This document shows, piece after piece, positions 51,440 through 61,655 of a stretch of 64,000 nucleotides of DNA; position 1 is the stretch's first letter; each line of letters starts with the position of its first letter. The stretch lies in contig JAHIXK010000010.1 of NCBI GenBank assembly GCA_018815245.1, forward strand, positions 248,001 to 312,000. The letters run 5' to 3'. The DNA comes from Gammaproteobacteria bacterium. Lineage in GTDB: Bacteria; Pseudomonadota; Gammaproteobacteria; Burkholderiales; Burkholderiaceae_B. Below the pieces are notes generated by a model. The model was not told the DNA's origin. It did not search any database and was given only the letters and a program-made list of their open reading frames with translations. The position numbers were made by a program, and so were the translations under genes.

Positions 51440-51844
51440 TTAATCGCACAACACCAGTGAAGGTTCCGCAAACACCATTTGCTCAAGCAACCCGGATTCC
51501 TGTTCAAACACGGCACTGAGAAACATCAATTGCTCGCACAGTGACTGAATTGATTCATCGTGACTTTGTGGGTCGATGTGAACAATCTTCTGTGTGTTTT
51601 CCACTTCCAGCAGGTATTGTTCCATCAGGGTTTGTAACGTCGGCTTGTTCAAGGCCCAGGTTTTCAATTGCACAACCAAGGCAAATCGAGCTTGTGCCGA
51701 ACGGGTTTTCCTCAGTTGCTCACCGAAATATTTCAGGCCGTGCGCAGCATTGTCCAGTTCCATTGTCACGCGTGATTCCGCTTGACGGAAGTAAAGCGGT
51801 TCGTGCGTGTCTGTGCTGTGTTCTTGAACCAGTGCAATGTTCAT
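51440..51844 (-). CDS. hypothetical protein (134 aa), convergent to mnmE
   Basis: From ATG 51844, with GGAG nine bases upstream; a GTG at 51859 would add five residues. No signal peptide or membrane segment. Mostly alpha-helical and acidic, with E-x-R-V-x-M-E-L and L-E-Q-M-V-F near the C-terminus. I recognise no family. Confidence 0.6.
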   Translation of the reverse strand: MNIALVQEHSTDTHEPLYFRQAESRVTMELDNAAHGLKYFGEQLRKTRSAQARFALVVQLKTWALNKPTLQTLMEQYLLEVENTQKIVHIDPQSHDESIQSLCEQLMFLSAVFEQESGLLEQMVFAEPSLVLCD

Positions 51845-51940
51845 GGTGCCGTGCTCCACAAGGGATTCATCATGGTTTCATCTTACGGGTTTCAGTTTCT
51901 TTGCCCATTCCGTGAATTGAGGATGCTTGTTTGTGATGCC

Positions 51941-51954
51941 CCCCCAAATTGCGG
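51941..51954. promoter_or_regulatory. C-rich motif before the regulator gene at 52068
   Basis: CCCCCAAATTGCGG (part of a run of seven C) lies 114 bp upstream of the LuxR-type regulator. It matches the first nine bases of a palindrome at 57756 (CCCCCAAAT). Shared position upstream of signalling genes suggests a common regulator. Confidence 0.35.
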
Positions 51955-52067
51955 AACCCTTTGCATGAAAGGACAAACTGCAGTCTTAATTGTTCGGGCA
52001 AATTCATGTACTCTTTGCGGTGAAGAACAGACTGAATGGTCCGATGGCTTGAATTGACCTGCTAACA

Positions 52068-52724
52068 ATGAAAAATCAAAAAATACTGGTGCTGGAAGAC
52101 CACCCTCTAATTTCCATGGTGATTGAGGATGTTTGCAAAGACATGGTGCCCCATGCGCAACTGACTGTTGTAACCAGCCTTTTGCAAGCGCGTGAACATG
52201 TGTTCGAGCGCCCGGACCTGATCATTTTCGATTTGACCCTGACCGATTCTCGAGGCAAAGAAACCATTGATTGGCTCGATTCCATGTTCCCGAATGTGTG
52301 CGGCTTGATTTATACCGGTTTTGTGAATGAGGATATTCAGGCCAGGGCAGTGCAGTCCGGCTACACGATCATAGACAAGGCCTGTAGCCAGTCGGTGTTG
52401 GCCAAAGAAATAGAAGCGGCGTTGTTCCGTTCAGGTATCTTGAGTCGATCAACTTCAGAGCCTGCGCCCGCCAATGAGCATCAATCCAATATCGTGGCCT
52501 ATCCGGGTGCCAAACCACTGACCTGGCGGCAAGTTGAAATTATGCGCATGACAGCCGAAGGTTTGTCGGCGAAAATGGTGGCTCAGAGAATCGGGCTAAG
52601 TCCCGAAACCGTTCGGGGACATATCCGGGAAATTTTCAAGCGCCTTGAGGTGTCCAACAAGGCGCAAGCGGTCAATGTGTTTTTGAAAGCCGAGCGAAGT
52701 GTAAAAATGAAACTCAATGATTAG
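52068..52724 (+). CDS. LuxR/NarL-type response regulator, copy 2 of 3
   Basis: 218 residues. The receiver begins I-L-V-L-E-D-H-P-L-I-S with acceptor Asp in L-I-I-F-D-L-T-L-T-D. The helix-turn-helix at about 150-205 carries K-P-L-T-W-R-Q-V-E-I-M-R and S-P-E-T-V-R-G-H-I-R-E-I. Closely related to the regulators at 36893 and 56928. It ends 11 nt inside the convergent Cache gene. Confidence 0.92.
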   Translation: MKNQKILVLEDHPLISMVIEDVCKDMVPHAQLTVVTSLLQAREHVFERPDLIIFDLTLTDSRGKETIDWLDSMFPNVCGLIYTGFVNEDIQARAVQSGYTIIDKACSQSVLAKEIEAALFRSGILSRSTSEPAPANEHQSNIVAYPGAKPLTWRQVEIMRMTAEGLSAKMVAQRIGLSPETVRGHIREIFKRLEVSNKAQAVNVFLKAERSVKMKLND

Positions 52725-53316
52725 GGTGAGGCACCCGTTTCAAATCAACACCCACAGTGAGGGTGCCAATCATGGACTCTCCATCGTAGACAGGCACGCT
52801 GACTTGCGCAATCATGGCTTTGGTGCTGTCATCCCACCGTGCACGTGAGATAAAAGAATCGGGTTTTCTAGAGGGCACATTGCTGTCAAATATTTCCAGG
52901 AATTTTTCTTCATCCCCTTGCCAAAAATCAGTAGTGACTTTGTTCATGGCCAGGGTTTCACCCTGATTGCCAGTCAAAATTACTTCCTTGAAGTAGACTT
53001 TCCTGTTCATTTCTACAGCCAATAGCGCTGATATTCTTGATCCCAGAATTTCTTGTGCCTCTGGCAGTTTGCCTTGCATTTTGATCCAGCGGGTGTCCAG
53101 ATCCAGAATGGCAGCGTTGCTCATTTGCTTTGCATTGCCGGCCTTGACGGCGTCTACTACTTCTTTCCGTGCAGCAATGGCCTGGATTTCCCTGACCATG
53201 GTACCTACACAGAACGCATGCGCTTGACCACCCGCACCCACGAGCAAGACGAGCAGTAGCCATGATGGCCAAGCACTAAACCGGACAAGCCAATTTGAGG
53301 GTTTTCCTTGTTTCAT
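52714..53316 (-). CDS. secreted stand-alone Cache (PDC) sensor protein
   Basis: 200 residues. A signal peptide (about 1-34, ending A-H-A-F) exports it; there is no further membrane segment. The remainder looks like a single Cache/PDC sensor domain, with E-x-x-x-K-V-Y-F-K-E near 108, D-F-W-Q-G-D-E near 130 and V-P-V-Y-D-G-E-S-M-I-G-T-L-T-V-G-V-D near the end, the classic Cache beta-hairpin. Free periplasmic Cache domains are uncommon; most are fused to kinases or chemoreceptors. It follows the mini binding protein by 9 nt, so both are probably expressed together. Confidence 0.78.
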   Translation of the reverse strand: MKQGKPSNWLVRFSAWPSWLLLVLLVGAGGQAHAFCVGTMVREIQAIAARKEVVDAVKAGNAKQMSNAAILDLDTRWIKMQGKLPEAQEILGSRISALLAVEMNRKVYFKEVILTGNQGETLAMNKVTTDFWQGDEEKFLEIFDSNVPSRKPDSFISRARWDDSTKAMIAQVSVPVYDGESMIGTLTVGVDLKRVPHPNH

Positions 53317-53325
53317 GTGTGTGGC

Positions 53326-53778
53326 TTACTCTGCCAGTACCTTGATCAATCTCAGTTTCGACTTTGCGCCATTCTCTTGCAATTCGCTTTGTGTCACATA
53401 GCCAAGAGCATTCGGATTGGTCAGCAGCATCTGGATCATGTGTTTGCTGTCGCGTGCCACGGTGGGAGCCTTGCTGACACCAATGCATTCGAGCAAGCGT
53501 TGAACCGTTTTGAATTCTTCATTGGTAAAGCCAAGTGTGCTTAAAATGAAGTGGCTTCGTTCTCGAAATGCCTCGTCACGGTCAATGACCAGCACGTTGG
53601 TACTGCCGACCATCTGGCTTTGGCCTGTGTACAGGTCGCGTAGTTTGGTTTTTGATATTTCACTGAAATGCAGTTTACTTGAACCAACCAGCACCACCTC
53701 CGCATGCGCAATGCGTGGCGCTGCCACCACTGCAAGCATGGCAAGGCCGAGCATGATTGCTTGAATGAAATATTTCAC
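53326..53778 (-). CDS. secreted mini PstS-like substrate-binding protein
   Basis: 150 residues. A signal peptide ends at A-H-A near residue 26. The mature part resembles one lobe of the phosphate-binding PstS family: V-V-L-V-G-S-S at the start, I-S-K-T-K-L-R-D-L-Y-T-G-Q near 42, and A-L-G-Y-V-T-Q-S-E near 128. Such short PBP-like proteins are often encoded beside sensor kinases. No ABC transporter is present here. It lies 140 bp downstream of the hybrid kinase gene on the same strand. Confidence 0.78.
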   Translation of the reverse strand: MKYFIQAIMLGLAMLAVVAAPRIAHAEVVLVGSSKLHFSEISKTKLRDLYTGQSQMVGSTNVLVIDRDEAFRERSHFILSTLGFTNEEFKTVQRLLECIGVSKAPTVARDSKHMIQMLLTNPNALGYVTQSELQENGAKSKLRLIKVLAE

Positions 53779-53918
53779 ATCAAACCCTTGAAAATACTTT
53801 TACTACTTTGGGCAAGTTCTTGATACTAAAAATACTTAGAACTTTTTATTTTTGTGTGTTACTGCCAAGTCAGTGTAAAACAAGCCTCAATTGAAAACAA
53901 ACAGTTCGGTATTTGAGG

Positions 53919-56891
53919 TCAATTTTTCCCAAACCGGTTGATCAGTACCAGTATTTTTTCCGCTTCATCGACAATCTTGGGCCACACTTCTTTCATTTCT
54001 TTTATTACAGCAGGACCCGCAGATGCATTTTCCAGTGATTTGTCCATGCGTGAAAATTGCTGCTGTACGCTTTCAGTACCCAACATACCCAGCACCCCGG
54101 CCAGCGAATGTATTTCCCGTTTCAGGGTCTGGATGTCATTCTGGTTCACACAGTCTTCCAGGCGTTCAATCAAGTTTTCACTGGTTTGCAAAAATTTGCC
54201 CAGATATTTGGCCATGCGTTCAGGCTCAAAGCTGTCTACCTTGAAAATCGACGCGTGTTTGGGTGCAATTACCTCGGGACCTATTGGGTCCTGAAGCTCC
54301 AGCGGCCCGGTTCTCATTTCAAAACCGGTTAGCACGCCTTCGTTGTTGCGCAGGCAACGTTTTATTGCATCGAACAGGTTTTGTTCATGAAACGGTTTGG
54401 TCAATACATCGTTAATTCCGTGTTCTTCACATCGCACACGCGTTTGTTCGAAGGCGTGTGCGGTCAGTGCCATGATGGGGGTGACACAATGCACAGCATT
54501 TTCTCGCACCCACGTTGCCAACTGGTAGCCGTCCACAAAGGGCATTTCCAGATCCGAGATTATCAGGTCGAAGGGTTCGGGTGTGTTCTTGAGAATCTGG
54601 ATGGCTTCTCGCCCGTCTTTGGCACAGCGGATCTGGTAATTTTTCGGGCTCAGGAAGTCCAGCAACAACTCCATGTTCAATGGGTGATCTTCTACAATCA
54701 AAATATTGGCGGTGCGCGCAACGGAGTTACCTGTCATCTGCCCAGTCTTGGGATTCTTTTTCTTGTCGGTCTTGTGGTTGAGCAACACGTCGTGGTTGCT
54801 AATTTTCCGTTCTGCAAGTTTCATCAAGTGAACGGGCAGGATAGGGGTAGTCAGCACCTTGTTGTTGGCATCTGCGCCATGTACGCGTTTCAGTTCGCTG
54901 GCGTTGCGGTTTGACAGCCAAATCAGGTTTTCACGCTGCTCAAGCAGGTTGGTTTGCAACAATGACAACAGTTCAGGCGATGTGGTGGCAATGTCACTGT
55001 CAATGAACACAATGTCTTGCGGTTCGAAAGGCCGATGCTCCATGACCAGTTCTTCCGGCGAAAGCGCGGCCAAAGGCACATAGAACTGATCCAGAATGCT
55101 GGAGATAGAACGGTGCAGTTTCTGGTCAAGTGAGCATATGAATGCGCGTTTGATGTCTGGGCTGTGGAGCAAACTGGGGTTGCGGGCTGGTGCCTCGGCT
55201 TCCTGGATTTTCAGGTTCAATGTGAAGTAGAACACCGAGCCACGTCCGGGGGTGGAGTGGGCGTGAATGTCTCCCTCCATCAAGTGCACCAGTTCTTTGG
55301 CAATGCTCAAGCCCAGCCCACTGCCGCCGAACATGCGTGTGGTGCTTGAATCGGCTTGCGTAAATTTGTCGAACACGCGTTGAAGCTGGTCTTTGCTCAT
55401 GCCAATGCCCGTGTCACTGACGCTGAATTGTAGCGTTACCTGATCATCGAGCTGCTTGAGTACTTTGACGGTCAGGTTGACATGACCTTCCGAGGTAAAT
55501 TTGATGGCATTGCCGATCAGGTTTTTCAGGATTTGCCCAACTCGAAGCGAGTCGCCCACAAGGCGGTTCAGGGTCGATTGCAAGCCTTTGCCTTGCAGGG
55601 TGTAAAGCAGGCGGATATTTTTGTCCAGTGCGGAATTGCCCAAAGTTCCAAACACCTCTTCCAGCACATCGTCCAGCCTGAAAGGACGTTGTTCCAGTTT
55701 GAACATGTCCGATTCGATTTTGGACAAATCCAGAATGCTGTTGAGCAAATGCAGCAGGTTGTCCCCTGACAATTGAATTTTGCTCAAGTAGTCTTTCTGT
55801 TTTTCGTTGAGTTCGGTTTTCAGTGTCAGCGCGGTCATGCCCAATATTGCATTCATGGGCGTGCGAATTTCGTGGCTCATGTTGGCAAGGAATGAGCTTT
55901 TGATTCGCGACTCATTTTTGGCCCTTTCTTTCTCCACATTGGCCAGGCTTACTTCTTCCAAGGCCTGTTTCACCCGTTCGCTTTTTTCCAGGTCGCGTTG
56001 AAAGGAGCGAATCATCCTGTTGAAAGCACGAATGAGCAAGTTGATTTCATGCGAGCCCGTGCGGTTGTTCACGCGCACTGTGTAGTCGCCCTTCATGATT
56101 TCTTCGCTGGCGTTGTACAGCGAGTTGATGGGATCAATCACCTTCTTTTTGATTGACACCAAGCCCACGAACAAACCAAGCAGGAACAGCAGGGTGAACA
56201 CCACATCCAGATAAACGCTGTAAGTCAGTTCTTTGCGTGATGCATCAATCAAGCCCAGGTAGCGGGTTTTCTCGCGTGCAATAAAGCTGGACAGCTCGAA
56301 AGACAGTGCGTTGGTCAGTTCAATGTGTTCACGGTCAAACAGCATGCCGAATGTGTCACGCACTTCCGGTGGAGAAAGGAATTTGTCGTCGGGTTTGTCG
56401 ACAAAGCGCGTGATGCCGCTGGCAAATGCATTCAGTTCATTGCGTTCCAGCCGGTGCCGCAGGTCGAGAATGCGTTCAATGGCCGGCTCGTTTTCGGAAA
56501 TGAACCGAAGGGAATAAAGTCGTTCGCTAAGATTCTGACCAATACCCCAGGACACAGCGGAATCTTTTGTCTGGCCTGTGATCACATCGACCCAATAATC
56601 CACCTCAACCTCGGAGGTGTAAATCCGACTTCCATTGTGCAAGCCGACAATGTCGAGATAGTGGTTGATGTATTCCGGATTGCGACTGGCTGCGTACAGC
56701 AGAACCAGCTTGCGCATGGCTTCGAACTCAGCCAGGGTTCTTGTCAGGATTGCCTCATCCGAGGCCCAGGCGCGGTAGTAGTCCTCTTGTACGGTCTGCT
56801 GATGAATCGATATGCTTTTCACCCCGATGCCGAATATGGAAAAAACCACGATCAGCAGGGCGAAAATTCGAATAAGCAGAGAAAGTTTCAT
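53919..56891 (-). CDS. hybrid histidine kinase with pseudo-receiver, receiver and Hpt
   Basis: 990 residues. Membrane segments near 5-24 and 225-247 enclose a helical periplasmic sensor of about 200 residues. HAMP follows near 248-300, HisKA with His340 in S-H-E-I-R-T-P-M, and HATPase with D-T-G-I-G-M near 493 and G-G-S-G-L-G-L near 522. Region 575-700 looks like a degenerate receiver. A full receiver carries acceptor Asp780 in L-I-I-S-D-L-E-M-P, and the C-terminal Hpt domain has His928 in R-E-I-H-S-L-A-G. This is a complete intramolecular phosphorelay. The regulator gene directly upstream (36 nt) is the likely target. Confidence 0.94.
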   Translation of the reverse strand: MKLSLLIRIFALLIVVFSIFGIGVKSISIHQQTVQEDYYRAWASDEAILTRTLAEFEAMRKLVLLYAASRNPEYINHYLDIVGLHNGSRIYTSEVEVDYWVDVITGQTKDSAVSWGIGQNLSERLYSLRFISENEPAIERILDLRHRLERNELNAFASGITRFVDKPDDKFLSPPEVRDTFGMLFDREHIELTNALSFELSSFIAREKTRYLGLIDASRKELTYSVYLDVVFTLLFLLGLFVGLVSIKKKVIDPINSLYNASEEIMKGDYTVRVNNRTGSHEINLLIRAFNRMIRSFQRDLEKSERVKQALEEVSLANVEKERAKNESRIKSSFLANMSHEIRTPMNAILGMTALTLKTELNEKQKDYLSKIQLSGDNLLHLLNSILDLSKIESDMFKLEQRPFRLDDVLEEVFGTLGNSALDKNIRLLYTLQGKGLQSTLNRLVGDSLRVGQILKNLIGNAIKFTSEGHVNLTVKVLKQLDDQVTLQFSVSDTGIGMSKDQLQRVFDKFTQADSSTTRMFGGSGLGLSIAKELVHLMEGDIHAHSTPGRGSVFYFTLNLKIQEAEAPARNPSLLHSPDIKRAFICSLDQKLHRSISSILDQFYVPLAALSPEELVMEHRPFEPQDIVFIDSDIATTSPELLSLLQTNLLEQRENLIWLSNRNASELKRVHGADANNKVLTTPILPVHLMKLAERKISNHDVLLNHKTDKKKNPKTGQMTGNSVARTANILIVEDHPLNMELLLDFLSPKNYQIRCAKDGREAIQILKNTPEPFDLIISDLEMPFVDGYQLATWVRENAVHCVTPIMALTAHAFEQTRVRCEEHGINDVLTKPFHEQNLFDAIKRCLRNNEGVLTGFEMRTGPLELQDPIGPEVIAPKHASIFKVDSFEPERMAKYLGKFLQTSENLIERLEDCVNQNDIQTLKREIHSLAGVLGMLGTESVQQQFSRMDKSLENASAGPAVIKEMKEVWPKIVDEAEKILVLINRFGKN

Positions 56892-56927
56892 GGCCTAGCC
56901 TTGTTCTTGGTGTTATCCGGCCAGAAC

Positions 56928-57602
56928 TCAGTTGCTTTGTGCTTCTTCAAGCAATCGTGATTGTCTTTCTGCCTTGGTGAAGATCGACACCGCATGGGCT
57001 CGGTTTTGGGCGCCCAGTCTGACAAGGACTTCACGCATGTGGGCGCGTACGGTCTCAGGGCTGAGGTTCATGTCACGGGCCGCCTCTTTGGCGGTCATGC
57101 CGACAGCAATGCGGCGCATGATTTCAACCTGTCTCCAGGTCAGGGGTTTTTTCGATCCAGGTGCAATGATGTTGGACTGAAATTCGTTTTTTGATTTCAT
57201 TTTGTCCGCGTTCATGCCTTCCGGACAGTTTACACCCACGGCCATCAATCCTTTCATGACGGCGTTCAGCAATTCATGGTAGTCGGCAGACTTTCGGACA
57301 CAGGGGATTCCCATGTCTTTCAGCTCTTGCAAGATGCCATCGTGCGTGGTTCCGGTAAAGGCCAGCAATTGGGAAAAGGGATAAAGGCTGCGCACCCGTT
57401 TGGCAGAGTCAATGCCTTCGCAATCTGGCAGGTTCAGGTCGAATATCACCAAGCGAGGGTTTTCTTGCACATGTTGTTCACTGGCTTGAATGCTGGGAAC
57501 TTTTCGAACGTTCAGGTCTGGTGCGTGCTCGGTTAGCATGTCCGCAAGCATCATTGACACCAGAGGGTGATCTTCGACCAGAAGTACAGCGTTGGGGCTC
57601 AT
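56928..57602 (-). CDS. LuxR/NarL-type response regulator, copy 3 of 3
   Basis: 224 residues from ATG 57602, which has GGAGG eight bases upstream. The receiver begins V-L-L-V-E-D-H-P-L-V-S, with acceptor Asp in V-I-F-D-L-N-L-P-D. The helix-turn-helix at about 155-210 carries K-P-L-T-W-R-Q-V-E-I-M-R and S-P-E-T-V-R-A-H-M-R-E-V. Its position next to the Hpt-containing kinase makes it the likely final receiver of the phosphorelay. Transcription probably runs from here through the kinase, PBP-like and Cache genes. Confidence 0.93.
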   Translation of the reverse strand: MSPNAVLLVEDHPLVSMMLADMLTEHAPDLNVRKVPSIQASEQHVQENPRLVIFDLNLPDCEGIDSAKRVRSLYPFSQLLAFTGTTHDGILQELKDMGIPCVRKSADYHELLNAVMKGLMAVGVNCPEGMNADKMKSKNEFQSNIIAPGSKKPLTWRQVEIMRRIAVGMTAKEAARDMNLSPETVRAHMREVLVRLGAQNRAHAVSIFTKAERQSRLLEEAQSN

Positions 57603-57755
57603 GAGGCAACCCTCCAAATTTTATTTTGCCTGAAAAAAAGCGGAATCGGTGTTATCGATTTCTTGAATTTATGTTACGTGCTTACCCTCTTGATGGTGAC
57701 CCTTCATTTGGAGGATGGCTTCATTTGAAGCGTGTGAGGCTTCAAACTGATTCGT

Positions 57756-57770
57756 CCCCCAAATAGGGGG
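57756..57770. promoter_or_regulatory. perfect palindrome CCCCC-N5-GGGGG in the divergent promoter
   Basis: CCCCCAAATAGGGGG, with 5-bp arms, lies between the divergent regulator gene (starting at 57602) and the single-receiver gene (from 57848). NarL/LuxR-type dimers bind short inverted repeats, so autoregulation is plausible. A related half lies at 51941. Confidence 0.45.
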
Positions 57771-57847
57771 GGATCACTTTGTGTCTACAGTATGCCACGG
57801 GTCATCCACTAACCTAACATCATTGGGTATTAATGCCGACTGACTAG

Positions 57848-58345
57848 GTGATTGTTGTGAGCGAATCCGGATCAAAACTTTTGGAAGTGTGGGTTGCTGA
57901 GGATTCTCCTTTTTATCGCCTGGTGGTTGAAGAGGCGATTGAGGAGATAGCCAAAGTCACCTATTTCGCTATTTCACTGACCGTGTTTGAACGGTTCGGT
58001 GACATTCGCCAAGCCTTTGACGAAGCCGAGCAAGGCCTTCGCGCCTTGCCTGCGGCGGTGTTGTCTGATCTTCATTTCCCAGACAATGCATACGATGACT
58101 TGCATGACATCCTGGCTTTCTATAGCCGTTACGTGCATGTGGTGCCTGTGTCTTATATGTCGTGCAATCTGGAAAGTCTGGAGTTGGCCGAGAGCCTGAC
58201 CGAGCATCGTTCAGATGCATTGCAAAAAGCCAGGTTTTTGCGCAAAGACACTTCCTCAACCATGAGCAATCTGGTCAAGACCATTCACTGCATGGTGTTT
58301 GCACCACGCACCCAGAACCTTAGTTTGGGCGCCACACTGGTTTAA
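57848..58345 (+). CDS. single receiver-domain protein
   Basis: About 165 residues. Receiver features are visible: acidic pair in A-E-D-S-P near 17-21, acceptor Asp74 in L-S-D-L-H-F-P-D, Ser102 after V-V-P-V and Lys133 in F-L-R-K-D. No output domain. It could act as a phosphate sink or shuttle like CheY. The start is uncertain: GTG 57848 or a GTG four codons later. Divergent from the regulator gene across the palindrome and convergent with the GAF/PAS gene. Confidence 0.75.
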   Translation: MIVVSESGSKLLEVWVAEDSPFYRLVVEEAIEEIAKVTYFAISLTVFERFGDIRQAFDEAEQGLRALPAAVLSDLHFPDNAYDDLHDILAFYSRYVHVVPVSYMSCNLESLELAESLTEHRSDALQKARFLRKDTSSTMSNLVKTIHCMVFAPRTQNLSLGATLV

Positions 58346-58351
58346 ATCTTC

Positions 58352-60730
58352 CTAGTTGTCAAATACCCTGAATACGATAAGGAAGCACGGCGCGTTGCGT
58401 GCTGTGTCCAGAAACGGGGAGATCAGAATGTCACAGTTTACTTTTTGTTCTGGGTTAACTTCGTACTCGGTCTTCACCAAAACCTTTTGTCGGCTCAGAA
58501 ATGCAACCAGCAGTTGCCGATAGTGGCGTGTGGGAATGCGCCCATGAATCAGATGGTATGGGTTGCGCCCCAGCCATTTGTCTCTGCTTTGCCCCACGAA
58601 TGTCTCGAAGGCGGAATTTACATAGAGCAAGCCGAATGGTTCTTTGGTTTTCCGGATGTCGTTGGTCACAATGATGATTTCACGGATCTGTTCGATCGCG
58701 GAATTCAGCATGTACAAATCGCTGCTCTGGTTTTTTCGTTTGGTTACGTCTTTGATCAGGATGGTGTAACCGGAGCCGGATTTAAAAACGCGAAGCGAAA
58801 TCCAGCGTTTGATGAACCCCACGAATTGTTCAACCGATTTTGAAACCCCGACTTTATTGACAGATTCAAGCAATGCAGCAAACTGTATTTTGTCCAGGTC
58901 TGGAATCAACTCTTCCAGCGGCAAGGCATGCACAAACAACTCGCGGTCTTTCTGCAGCAACGTCTTGGCGTTGCGGTTGACGAAACTGACATTCAGGCTA
59001 GCGTCTATTTCAATCAGTCCGTCTGTCAGATTGTCTACGATCAGGTTGTAGGTCAGCAGATTTTTTTCCAGCGCCTGTTCAACCCGCTTGGTCTCCGAGA
59101 TGTCGGCGATGGATCCATACAAACCCATGGGCACGCCATCTTCACCAACGGATGGGCGAATCATGATGCGGAACCATTTCTTTTTGTCCTCAGTTTGTGA
59201 GGCTTCAAATTCAAGACTTGCAGGTTTCCTGTTGTTGATGCATTCGATGAACAGCACGGCGATATTTCGACCCGAGAGTCTCGACAAAATTGAACTGAGG
59301 TGGAAGACCGAATGAAGGGAATCCTTGTTGACCCCCAGCACCTCGCGCAACATGTCCGTGGTTTTCAGTGAGCCACTTTCCAGATGGTAATACCAGCCCC
59401 CCACCTTGCCCAGTGTGCCTGTCAGGTTCAGCAGGCTTTCATCAAAAATGGATTTTTGCGCCGACGAAGACTTGTTGATCAATGCGGTGAATACGGCATC
59501 CACAGTGGGTTTGTTAAATGCTGTAAATCGTTTTTTCGGGTTCAACTCCATTCGCAACCAAGTGCGGTCGTCATGAATGTTCAGGCGAACCCATGCTTCG
59601 CTGGGTGAATTGTTTTTCAAACATAGCGCCAGCGTTTTCCGGAATGTTTCCTGGTCTTCTTTGTAAAGCAAATCAACAAAACTTTCTTTTTGCCTGATTT
59701 TGGTAATTTCCTGTTCACTGGCACTTGCCAGCCCGGTGATGAAGCCTTGATGATCCAGCGACAATTTTCCTTTGACTGTTTCACGTAGAAATGACTTTGG
59801 AAAGCGCTTCAAATCCACCTGAATTTCCATGCGAGGCGTGTTGGTCTCGTTGGCAGAGGGACTTATTTCAATGGGTGTTGCGGTTACGTTGTGGATTTTT
59901 TTGACCAACCCAAACAAGCGTTGATCATTCGGGTTACCGTTGTCGTACACCTGTTCTTCAAAACGGACGATGTCCCCGCTGGGCAAGCGGACACGGTAAA
60001 CGAATGGATTGCCTGTTCTTTCAAGCCGAGCCGTGCTTACCATGTCCCTGTCTTCTGCCAGGGGCAAGTCGAAGAACCACTTTGCCTGAACAAGCCGGGT
60101 TTGCGACAGGCACAACCATTTTTCCATGGATGGAGACAGTTCAATCTGTCCATTCTGGCTGGCACTTTTCCAGCTGCCCAGTCCCTGCTGGTTGCTGTGT
60201 AATTGGGAGGGTATGGAATTTACTTCTGCTGATTCTTTGACTTTTACCGCGCGCTCAACAAGATTGTGTTCAACCAGTTTGCCCAATGCCGAGGCAATCG
60301 AAATTTCTGCCTTGCTCCAAGATCTGGGTGCATTGTCCAGCACGCAAAAAGTACCGATGTTGTTGCCCTTAAGGGATTGAATTGGCACGCCCAAATATGC
60401 CCGCACATGTGGGGCGCCTGCTACCAGTGAATTGGTTTTCAATTCAGGGTGCTCAAGGCAGTTGTTGATTACGTTGGGTGTGTTTTGCTTGATCGTTTGA
60501 GCGCAGATTGAAAGGTCCCTGGGTATTTCTTTAATGTCGAATCCGCGTTTGGCTTTGAACCACTGCCTTGTAGAATCAACAAACGCAATGAAGCAAAAAG
60601 CGCTGTTGAATGCGGAAATACCCAGATCCACCAAGGCTTCAAAATATTCTTCATTGTTTGTGTCCAGAATATCGAGTTGGTACAGCTCTGTCAGCCGTAC
60701 CGCCTCGTTAATTTCATTTGGACTGCTCAT
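58352..60730 (-). CDS. GAF and multi-PAS sensor protein without output domain
   Basis: 792 residues, no membrane segment. A GAF domain at about 25-160 has A-Y-L-G-V-P and T-F-C-V-L-D. PAS-like repeats follow near 190-290, 435-550, 560-665 and 670-790; the fourth starts N-L-T-D-G-L-I-E-I-D, and I-A-D-I-S-E-T-K-R near 541 is a PAC-like end. The protein stops after the last PAS, with no kinase, GGDEF, EAL or DNA-binding domain. It may act by binding a partner. Gene neighbours are all signalling proteins. Confidence 0.85.
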   Translation of the reverse strand: MSSPNEINEAVRLTELYQLDILDTNNEEYFEALVDLGISAFNSAFCFIAFVDSTRQWFKAKRGFDIKEIPRDLSICAQTIKQNTPNVINNCLEHPELKTNSLVAGAPHVRAYLGVPIQSLKGNNIGTFCVLDNAPRSWSKAEISIASALGKLVEHNLVERAVKVKESAEVNSIPSQLHSNQQGLGSWKSASQNGQIELSPSMEKWLCLSQTRLVQAKWFFDLPLAEDRDMVSTARLERTGNPFVYRVRLPSGDIVRFEEQVYDNGNPNDQRLFGLVKKIHNVTATPIEISPSANETNTPRMEIQVDLKRFPKSFLRETVKGKLSLDHQGFITGLASASEQEITKIRQKESFVDLLYKEDQETFRKTLALCLKNNSPSEAWVRLNIHDDRTWLRMELNPKKRFTAFNKPTVDAVFTALINKSSSAQKSIFDESLLNLTGTLGKVGGWYYHLESGSLKTTDMLREVLGVNKDSLHSVFHLSSILSRLSGRNIAVLFIECINNRKPASLEFEASQTEDKKKWFRIMIRPSVGEDGVPMGLYGSIADISETKRVEQALEKNLLTYNLIVDNLTDGLIEIDASLNVSFVNRNAKTLLQKDRELFVHALPLEELIPDLDKIQFAALLESVNKVGVSKSVEQFVGFIKRWISLRVFKSGSGYTILIKDVTKRKNQSSDLYMLNSAIEQIREIIIVTNDIRKTKEPFGLLYVNSAFETFVGQSRDKWLGRNPYHLIHGRIPTRHYRQLLVAFLSRQKVLVKTEYEVNPEQKVNCDILISPFLDTARNAPCFLIVFRVFDN

Positions 60731-61312: not shown

Positions 61313-61379
61313 GGAAAAGTCCCCTTCTGTCATATACTGATTATTGAATTTTCATCAGTGTAGCGGTCAGCGAGATCCG

Positions 61380-61655
61380 ATGTCCAAGCCTTTGCAAATT
61401 AAGTTGTCCCATGAGGAGATTTCCCGCATCGTTGAGATGGCGTGGGAAGACAGAACGCCTTTTGAGGCAATCAAGCTCCAGTTTGGTTTGAATGAATCCC
61501 AAACAATTGAACTGATGCGAGCCAATATGAAAGCCAGCAGCTTTCGGATGTGGCGCGAGCGCGTAACCGGCCGAAAAACCAAGCACCTCAAGCTGCGAGG
61601 TTTCGTGCAATCCAGAGCGTATGCACCCGCACACTACAAAGTACGGCGCAGCTAG
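61380..61655 (+). CDS. TIGR03643-type small protein
   Basis: 91 residues from ATG 61380. The sequence matches the small family with I-V-E-M-A-W-E-D-R-T-P-F-E-A-I near 17-31 and M-W-R-x-R-V-T-G-R near 57. Probable helical nucleic-acid-binding fold, basic C-terminus. Function unknown. Confidence 0.85.
   Translation: MSKPLQIKLSHEEISRIVEMAWEDRTPFEAIKLQFGLNESQTIELMRANMKASSFRMWRERVTGRKTKHLKLRGFVQSRAYAPAHYKVRRS

Follow-up and report, generated by a model that had tools for sequence, protein, structure and literature searches.

A conserved Limnobacter gene block sets a free single-lobe periplasmic binding protein and a free Cache protein beside a hybrid kinase, possibly as its two-part soluble input

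The hybrid kinases TorS and LuxQ are each fed by a soluble, full two-lobed periplasmic binding protein (PBP), TorT and LuxP, respectively; to our knowledge, neither system has a Cache partner. VpvABC of Vibrio cholerae is a predicted three-component module in which a periplasmic binding protein stands with a porin, thought to admit the signal, and with a diguanylate cyclase anchored in the membrane; vpvAB pairs without vpvC occur in many Gamma- and Betaproteobacteria (PMC12456836). Stand-alone PBP-II or Cache genes have also been described in operons with bacterial ART-LGIC channels (PMC549065). Here, we analyze a block of eight signalling genes (positions 51440-60730) in a 64-kb stretch of Limnobacter DNA, the whole of which we call the window. 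Within this island, the genes of a free secreted Cache protein and a free, small PBP (mini-PBP) adjoin that of a 990-residue hybrid kinase. We give a probability of roughly one half to the reading that the block constitutes one phosphorelay with a two-part, possibly disulfide-linked, soluble periplasmic input.

As in TorT-TorS and LuxP-LuxQ, a soluble PBP is proposed here to feed a hybrid kinase, but the island PBP is single-lobed and accompanied by a Cache protein. Similar to VpvABC, the island has the gene of a small, single-lobed periplasmic binding protein next to that of a membrane signalling protein; unlike VpvABC, it has no porin, its signalling protein is a HisKA-REC-Hpt kinase with LuxR output, and a free Cache protein is added. 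This likeness was drawn through the layout of the mini-PBP relatives described below, not by sequence comparison with VpvB. The ART-LGIC operons likewise place a free PBP-II or Cache protein beside a membrane receptor, but there it is one or the other, and the receptor is an ion channel. The island layout combines a variant of the porin-PBP-receptor arrangement with the free-Cache-receptor one. An earlier note, made from the sequence alone, had called the layout unfamiliar: the whole combination of free Cache, free mini-PBP and kinase indeed found no match in the literature searched, which left aside preprints and most subscription papers, but its parts have precedents in free Cache proteins beside methyl-accepting chemotaxis proteins (MCPs), in mini-PBPs beside porins and MCPs or diguanylate cyclases, and in VpvABC.

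The block is bordered on one side by mnmE and on the other by a DUF1499 gene. The positions and domains of all eight genes agree with those given in the earlier note, as judged from open reading frames and Pfam, although the lone receiver is too divergent for a Pfam match. The features along the window are as follows:

51440-51859, minus strand: 139-residue protein of unassigned family, the first block gene after mnmE
52068-52724, plus strand: LuxR_A, a response regulator with receiver and GerE domains (Pfam), convergent with the Cache gene
52714-53316, minus strand: free secreted single-Cache protein; signal peptide ending in AHA (read from the sequence), one cysteine in the mature part, C36
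53326-53778, minus strand: mini-PBP made up of one PstS-like lobe; start codon GTG, signal peptide ending in AHA (read from the sequence), one cysteine in the mature part, C98
53779-53918, minus strand: 140-bp gap between the kinase and PBP genes, with the inverted repeat AAGTTC...GAACTT (from the alignment)
53919-56891, minus strand: hybrid kinase of 990 residues; transmembrane helix, helical periplasmic sensor (about 29-226), transmembrane helix, then HAMP, HisKA (H340), HATPase, REC (D780) and Hpt (H928), these five assigned by Pfam
56928-57617, minus strand: LuxR_B, a response regulator with receiver and GerE domains (Pfam), the first gene of the kinase cluster, syntenic in 9/9 loci
57848-58345, plus strand: divergent lone receiver with receiver-like conserved blocks
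58352-60730, minus strand: protein with GAF and several PAS domains and no output domain (Pfam), the last block gene

On the minus strand, LuxR_B is followed after 36 bp by the kinase, after a further 140 bp by the PBP and after 9 bp by the Cache gene, which overlaps the convergent LuxR_A gene by 11 bp. The block is syntenic in eight other Limnobacter genomes, and seven of them carry all eight genes in the same order; as the order recurs in these eight genomes, the arrangement is more than chance. In one genome (G013), the block is divided between two contigs, and L. humi (G014) carries seven genes: the Cache gene is missing, and the GAF-PAS gene gives only partial matches. Over the genus (n = 16 genomes), the island kinase was counted in 10, the PBP in nine and the island Cache in eight. 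The neighbourhood survey that the earlier note had called for found the PBP adjoining the kinase in 9/9 loci and the Cache following it in 8/8, the window included, but the triad is incomplete in L. humi. Because this species has kinase and PBP without Cache, the PBP seems, from these comparisons, to be the older partner of the kinase.

The remaining genomes indicate that the block is also absent as a whole. In G008, G009 and G015, the DUF1499 gene directly follows mnmE, and in G003 the two are separated by just one gene, homologous to the small gene at 61344-61655. In G004, where broken contigs carry the kinase gene and a portion of the GAF-PAS gene, PBP and Cache were not scored, and the incomplete genomes G001 and G010 were not scored for the block. 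In a five-protein tree, which is midpoint-rooted and has several weak branches, G008 and G009 are sisters (support 100) inside the block-bearing clade (with G006, 78); because both nest there, the block was probably lost as a unit in these two genomes. A scan of named genomes with the PBP profile gave eight loci, six in Limnobacter and two in metagenome bins.

The earlier note had proposed a regulator-kinase-PBP-Cache operon, an idea that the conserved gene order keeps plausible, but the 140 bp between kinase and PBP may hold a promoter of their own. The inverted repeat in this gap is retained in several Limnobacter loci and is a possible LuxR operator or separate promoter. Promoter and terminator scans gave matches at chance level, and a candidate RNA structure in the gap was rejected, its fold being no better than that of shuffled sequences (z -0.21). 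If the PBP and Cache genes formed a transcription unit of their own and fed another receptor, such as a chemoreceptor elsewhere in the genome, the gap with its inverted repeat and the MCPs that adjoin Cache relatives would both fit. Orthologues away from the kinase, which the earlier note had named in advance as evidence against its proposal, were found in none of the 16 genus genomes (paralogues exist in other settings), and we consider such a separate unit very unlikely.

The mini-PBP alone has no Pfam match. When nine orthologues are combined in a profile, PstS structures are matched (4q8r, E 1e-5), only over chain residues 76-188; because the match is limited to this segment, we read the protein as one lobe, and a fold search of the joint AlphaFold2 (AF2) model agrees with a single PstS-like lobe. 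At 150 residues including the signal peptide, the protein lacks the two lobes and ligand cleft of PstS-like proteins. The SGT of 4q8r, which we take to be the PstS phosphate-binding motif, aligns to FGE in the orthologue consensus and to FRE in the window protein.

Each of the two soluble proteins has one cysteine in its mature part, C98 in the PBP and C36 in the Cache protein, in 8/8 genomes that carry both (alignments A1 and A2), as well as in locus L066. C36 is the second residue after the AHA cleavage site, as read from the sequence. In a 36-row PBP set, the C98 column holds Tyr (7) or Phe (23) in 30/30 other rows, which comprise one L. humi protein, four porin-linked Limnobacter proteins, two from g13 (a genus of the same family) and 23 class rows; the L. 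humi residue, from the genome without Cache, is Tyr. The C36 column of a 29-row Cache set has no Cys in 21/21 other rows, one of them a gap. Other mature cysteines are rare (about 1/30 PBPs and 1/21 Caches), the periplasmic part of the kinase (29-226) has none in 9/9 rows (Cys 241 of the L. humi kinase lies in the second membrane helix), and the window's genome contains a DsbB gene. These patterns suggest an intermolecular PBP-Cache disulfide as the simplest reading of the paired cysteines. The interpretation given in the earlier note, with two soluble proteins feeding one kinase, is partly supported: the conserved adjacency agrees with it, but the paired cysteines favour the PBP and Cache acting together, not as two separate inputs.

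If PBP and Cache were nevertheless independent inputs, each with its own ligand and its own kinase contact and no disulfide between them, the L. humi PBP that stands with a kinase and no Cache would be expected, as would the Cache relatives that adjoin MCPs without a mini-PBP; the occurrence of paired single cysteines only where both proteins occur, and the 9 bp between the two genes in the window, point the other way, and we hold independent inputs to be unlikely, if still a serious contender. Alternatively, the cysteines could serve homodimers or thiol redox sensing instead of a PBP-Cache bond. One cysteine per chain suits homodimers, and C36, which would be mature residue 2 given the cleavage site read from the sequence, is probably flexible; however, the Tyr at the C98 position in the Cache-less L. 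humi, and Tyr or Phe in the 29 other sampled mini-PBPs, make this explanation fairly improbable.

The residues of a hybrid phosphorelay, H340, D780 and H928, are invariant in 9/9 rows of the kinase. An AF2 model of its sensor (9 rows; predicted local distance difference test, pLDDT, 72; predicted template modelling score, pTM, 0.58) is nearly all helical, with an uncertain insert at 85-119. The best solved match in Foldseek is NarQ, a weak one (E 1e-3, TM-scores 0.32 and 0.42, root-mean-square deviation, rmsd, 12.6); neither TorS nor LuxQ is among the best 50 structure matches of the sensor, and the TorS equivalog TIGR02956 scores 313 bits against a cut-off of 676.5. From the model, the sensor is taken as a helical bundle without a separate pocket domain, like the chemoreceptor that partners the paralogous Cache.

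In the reading that we prefer, a single phosphorelay with a two-part input, the mini-PBP would dock on the helical sensor that the 990-residue kinase exposes to the periplasm, and the free Cache would join the mini-PBP, probably through a C98-C36 disulfide formed by the oxidising Dsb system. A Cache ligand, or an altered Cache tether, would shift the PBP-kinase contact and send a signal through HAMP, upon which phosphate would pass from H340 via D780 to H928 and on to LuxR_B and probably also LuxR_A, in each case to the receiver domain. As their shared inheritance suggests, the relay may be modulated by the lone receiver and the GAF-PAS protein.

Several findings weigh against this reading. 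The joint read-through AF2 model is of low confidence (pLDDT 60, pTM 0.39), and the kinase-PBP gap leaves co-transcription a supposition. The cysteine correlation may represent one gain per protein; the branch of L. humi is long, and each protein taken alone would be consistent with homodimers. None of six long-frame mini-PBP proteins opened is a mini-PBP-kinase fusion. Within the Cache-bearing group, conservation is 84-91% for the sensor, 65-77% for the PBP and 61-73% for the Cache, and the conserved sensor may mean that the kinase has its own ligand or partner. A paralogous hybrid kinase of 951 residues with a related sensor, encoded in the window's own genome (L084 5471-8326, G000:C1), is present in 11/16 genus genomes, and neither PBP nor Cache adjoins it in the five loci inspected. 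Together with the NarQ match, weak as its rmsd makes it, the sensor conservation and this paralogue would suit an arrangement in which PBP and Cache are merely neighbouring envelope proteins and the kinase bundle itself senses a small ligand in the manner of NarQ. The conserved adjacency and common inheritance of the block argue against it, sensor residue R60 is Gln in g13, and the nitrate motif that we take to be typical of NarQ is not evident in the sensor; we regard it as rather improbable.

The relatives of the mini-PBP place the island next to porin-linked systems. A wider mini-PBP profile has matches in 92/369 class genomes, this genome included. At the 20 top-scoring loci of other genomes (19 genomes, chosen by score and not at random), the mini-PBP gene has a porin gene as its direct neighbour in 20/20, and next to the pair, on the same strand, 10 loci have a gene for an MCP (six) or a GGDEF protein (four); in one of the MCP cases, L189, the MCP adjoins the second of two mini-PBP pairs. 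Porins were called by an iterated profile, one being confirmed by Pfam (Porin_4) and the scanned g13 porin having no Pfam match. With the same profile, the mini-PBPs of L030, L031, L032 and both g13 loci each have a porin neighbour, and the window and seven block-bearing loci have no porin match. A profile built only from the nine island orthologues recovers 23/23 porin-linked mini-PBPs (E <= 7.4e-6, in a small set of open reading frames).

Both genomes of g13 with a match have the order LuxR, kinase, separate Hpt, porin and mini-PBP, and the one g13 kinase sensor aligned is homologous to the island sensor (24% identity). Limnobacter differs from g13 in that kinase and Hpt form one protein, the porin is missing and, L. 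humi aside, the Cache follows the PBP; we infer that the g13 gene order is likely the earlier state. An ordinary pair of porin and mini-PBP is also encoded in the window's genome (L030 7018-8675, G000:C15), with no GAF-PAS gene beside it. In another Limnobacter genome (L031 6236-10265, G011), an orphan GAF-PAS gene lies directly upstream of such a pair; its product is 37% identical to the block GAF-PAS protein, and this paralogue is a second link between the orphan GAF-PAS protein and mini-PBPs. Among the six long-frame mini-PBP proteins, four appear to be fusions with a protein that has one transmembrane stretch and a J-domain-like segment (by eye), one appears to be a fusion with another membrane-anchored protein, and one is probably a start-site artefact. 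In L216-L219, the mini-PBP domain is C-terminal in proteins of 560-750 residues, with the J-domain-like segment, again by eye, across the single transmembrane stretch.

Membership of the free secreted protein in the Cache family has weak but consistent indications from sequence and model. The window protein matches Pfam only below the cut-off (E 0.006-0.01), 9/10 family members match MCP-like_PDC_1 (E <= 0.1, best 2.9e-4), and the joint AF2 model, somewhere along its length, matches Cache-type sensors that include KinD and Mlp24 (E 1e-3 to 5e-3, at low to moderate pLDDT). PDB matches of the Cache profile are nearly all lysozymes (best E 0.011) and were taken as chance. A second kind of free Cache is present in 10/16 Limnobacter genomes, with an MCP as the next gene in nine and a contig end in the tenth; the one such MCP scanned has a four-helix-bundle sensor (4HB_MCP_1). 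The window's genome has the island copy only. In a 29-row tree, in which many deeper branches are weak and for which the program warned of long branches, island and MCP-linked Limnobacter Caches group together (100/99), and the eight island rows make up a separate clade (100/100). Because of this joint genus clade and the separate island clade, the island Cache is probably a duplicate that arose within Limnobacter and now stands beside the kinase. Alignment A5 is without rows L011, L012, L015 and L017.

Outside the genus, the class sample has a Cache match in 14 other genomes. All of these except G457 were opened, giving 14 regions in 13 genomes, several of them short contigs and not counting the additional, lower-scoring matches of G292 and G413. 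A free Cache is encoded in 11 of the regions: in eight, an MCP-like gene follows it directly; in two, a 421-residue protein (Peripla_BP_6 in the one scanned) is encoded between Cache and MCP; and in one, the Cache is close to the end of its contig. The three remaining matches are internal to longer proteins. Five other genomes of the order sample have a match, and the six regions opened there include two beside MCP-like genes, three distant ones beside another gene pair and one that is ambiguous; the family sample has a match in 5/151 genomes, all Limnobacter. No mini-PBP was seen near the Cache in the 20 regions of the class and order samples. The island shares with the free Cache-MCP pairs (10/11 class free-Cache regions and the Limnobacter paralogues) the Cache family and, as judged from the Limnobacter MCP scanned, a helical-bundle partner sensor, but its partner is a hybrid kinase and its Cache has an extra N-terminal cysteine. 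Cache-like regions inside two kinases look like ordinary larger Cache sensors.

Two of the class regions, L166 and L167, hold a receiver, a CheW-like gene (by eye), the free Cache, the 421-residue protein, an MCP and possibly a CheA-like long protein; the 421-residue protein of L167 is the Peripla_BP_6 case, and these loci represent another layout of free Cache, free PBP and receptor. In L213-L215, distant free Cache-like proteins (188-194 residues) lie beside proteins of about 500 residues (transporter-like by eye) and 794 residues.

The living relatives (g13, L. humi and other Limnobacter) show a possible rebuilding, in which the porin was lost, the Hpt fused, the Cache recruited from chemotaxis and the cysteines gained. 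Tentatively, and with less than even confidence, we propose that an MCP-linked Cache was duplicated, set behind a kinase-linked single-lobe PBP and bound to it by a new disulfide, giving a covalent soluble two-domain sensor that would replace a Vpv-like porin and drive a LuxR phosphorelay. If the disulfide is real, multi-domain sensors can be assembled from free secreted parts, not by gene fusion, and partners of single-lobe PBPs could be sought with a simple gel assay.

A mobile origin of the island was considered and rejected: there is no tRNA in the window, the block ends have no telling repeats and the GC content is near that of the close flanks; three proteins scanned gave no PHROG match. 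The 139-residue protein has nothing above the Pfam cut-off and no NCBIfam or PHROG match; its orthologues are 59-78% identical in seven other block-bearing genomes, with a weak 28% in L. humi. The lone receiver keeps the blocks VAED, SDLHFPD, SYMS and LRKDT in 8/8 rows, the roles of the residues within them being assumed from general knowledge. LuxR_A and LuxR_B are paralogues, as the earlier note had proposed, the window copy of one being 36-39% identical to the copies of the other in relatives.

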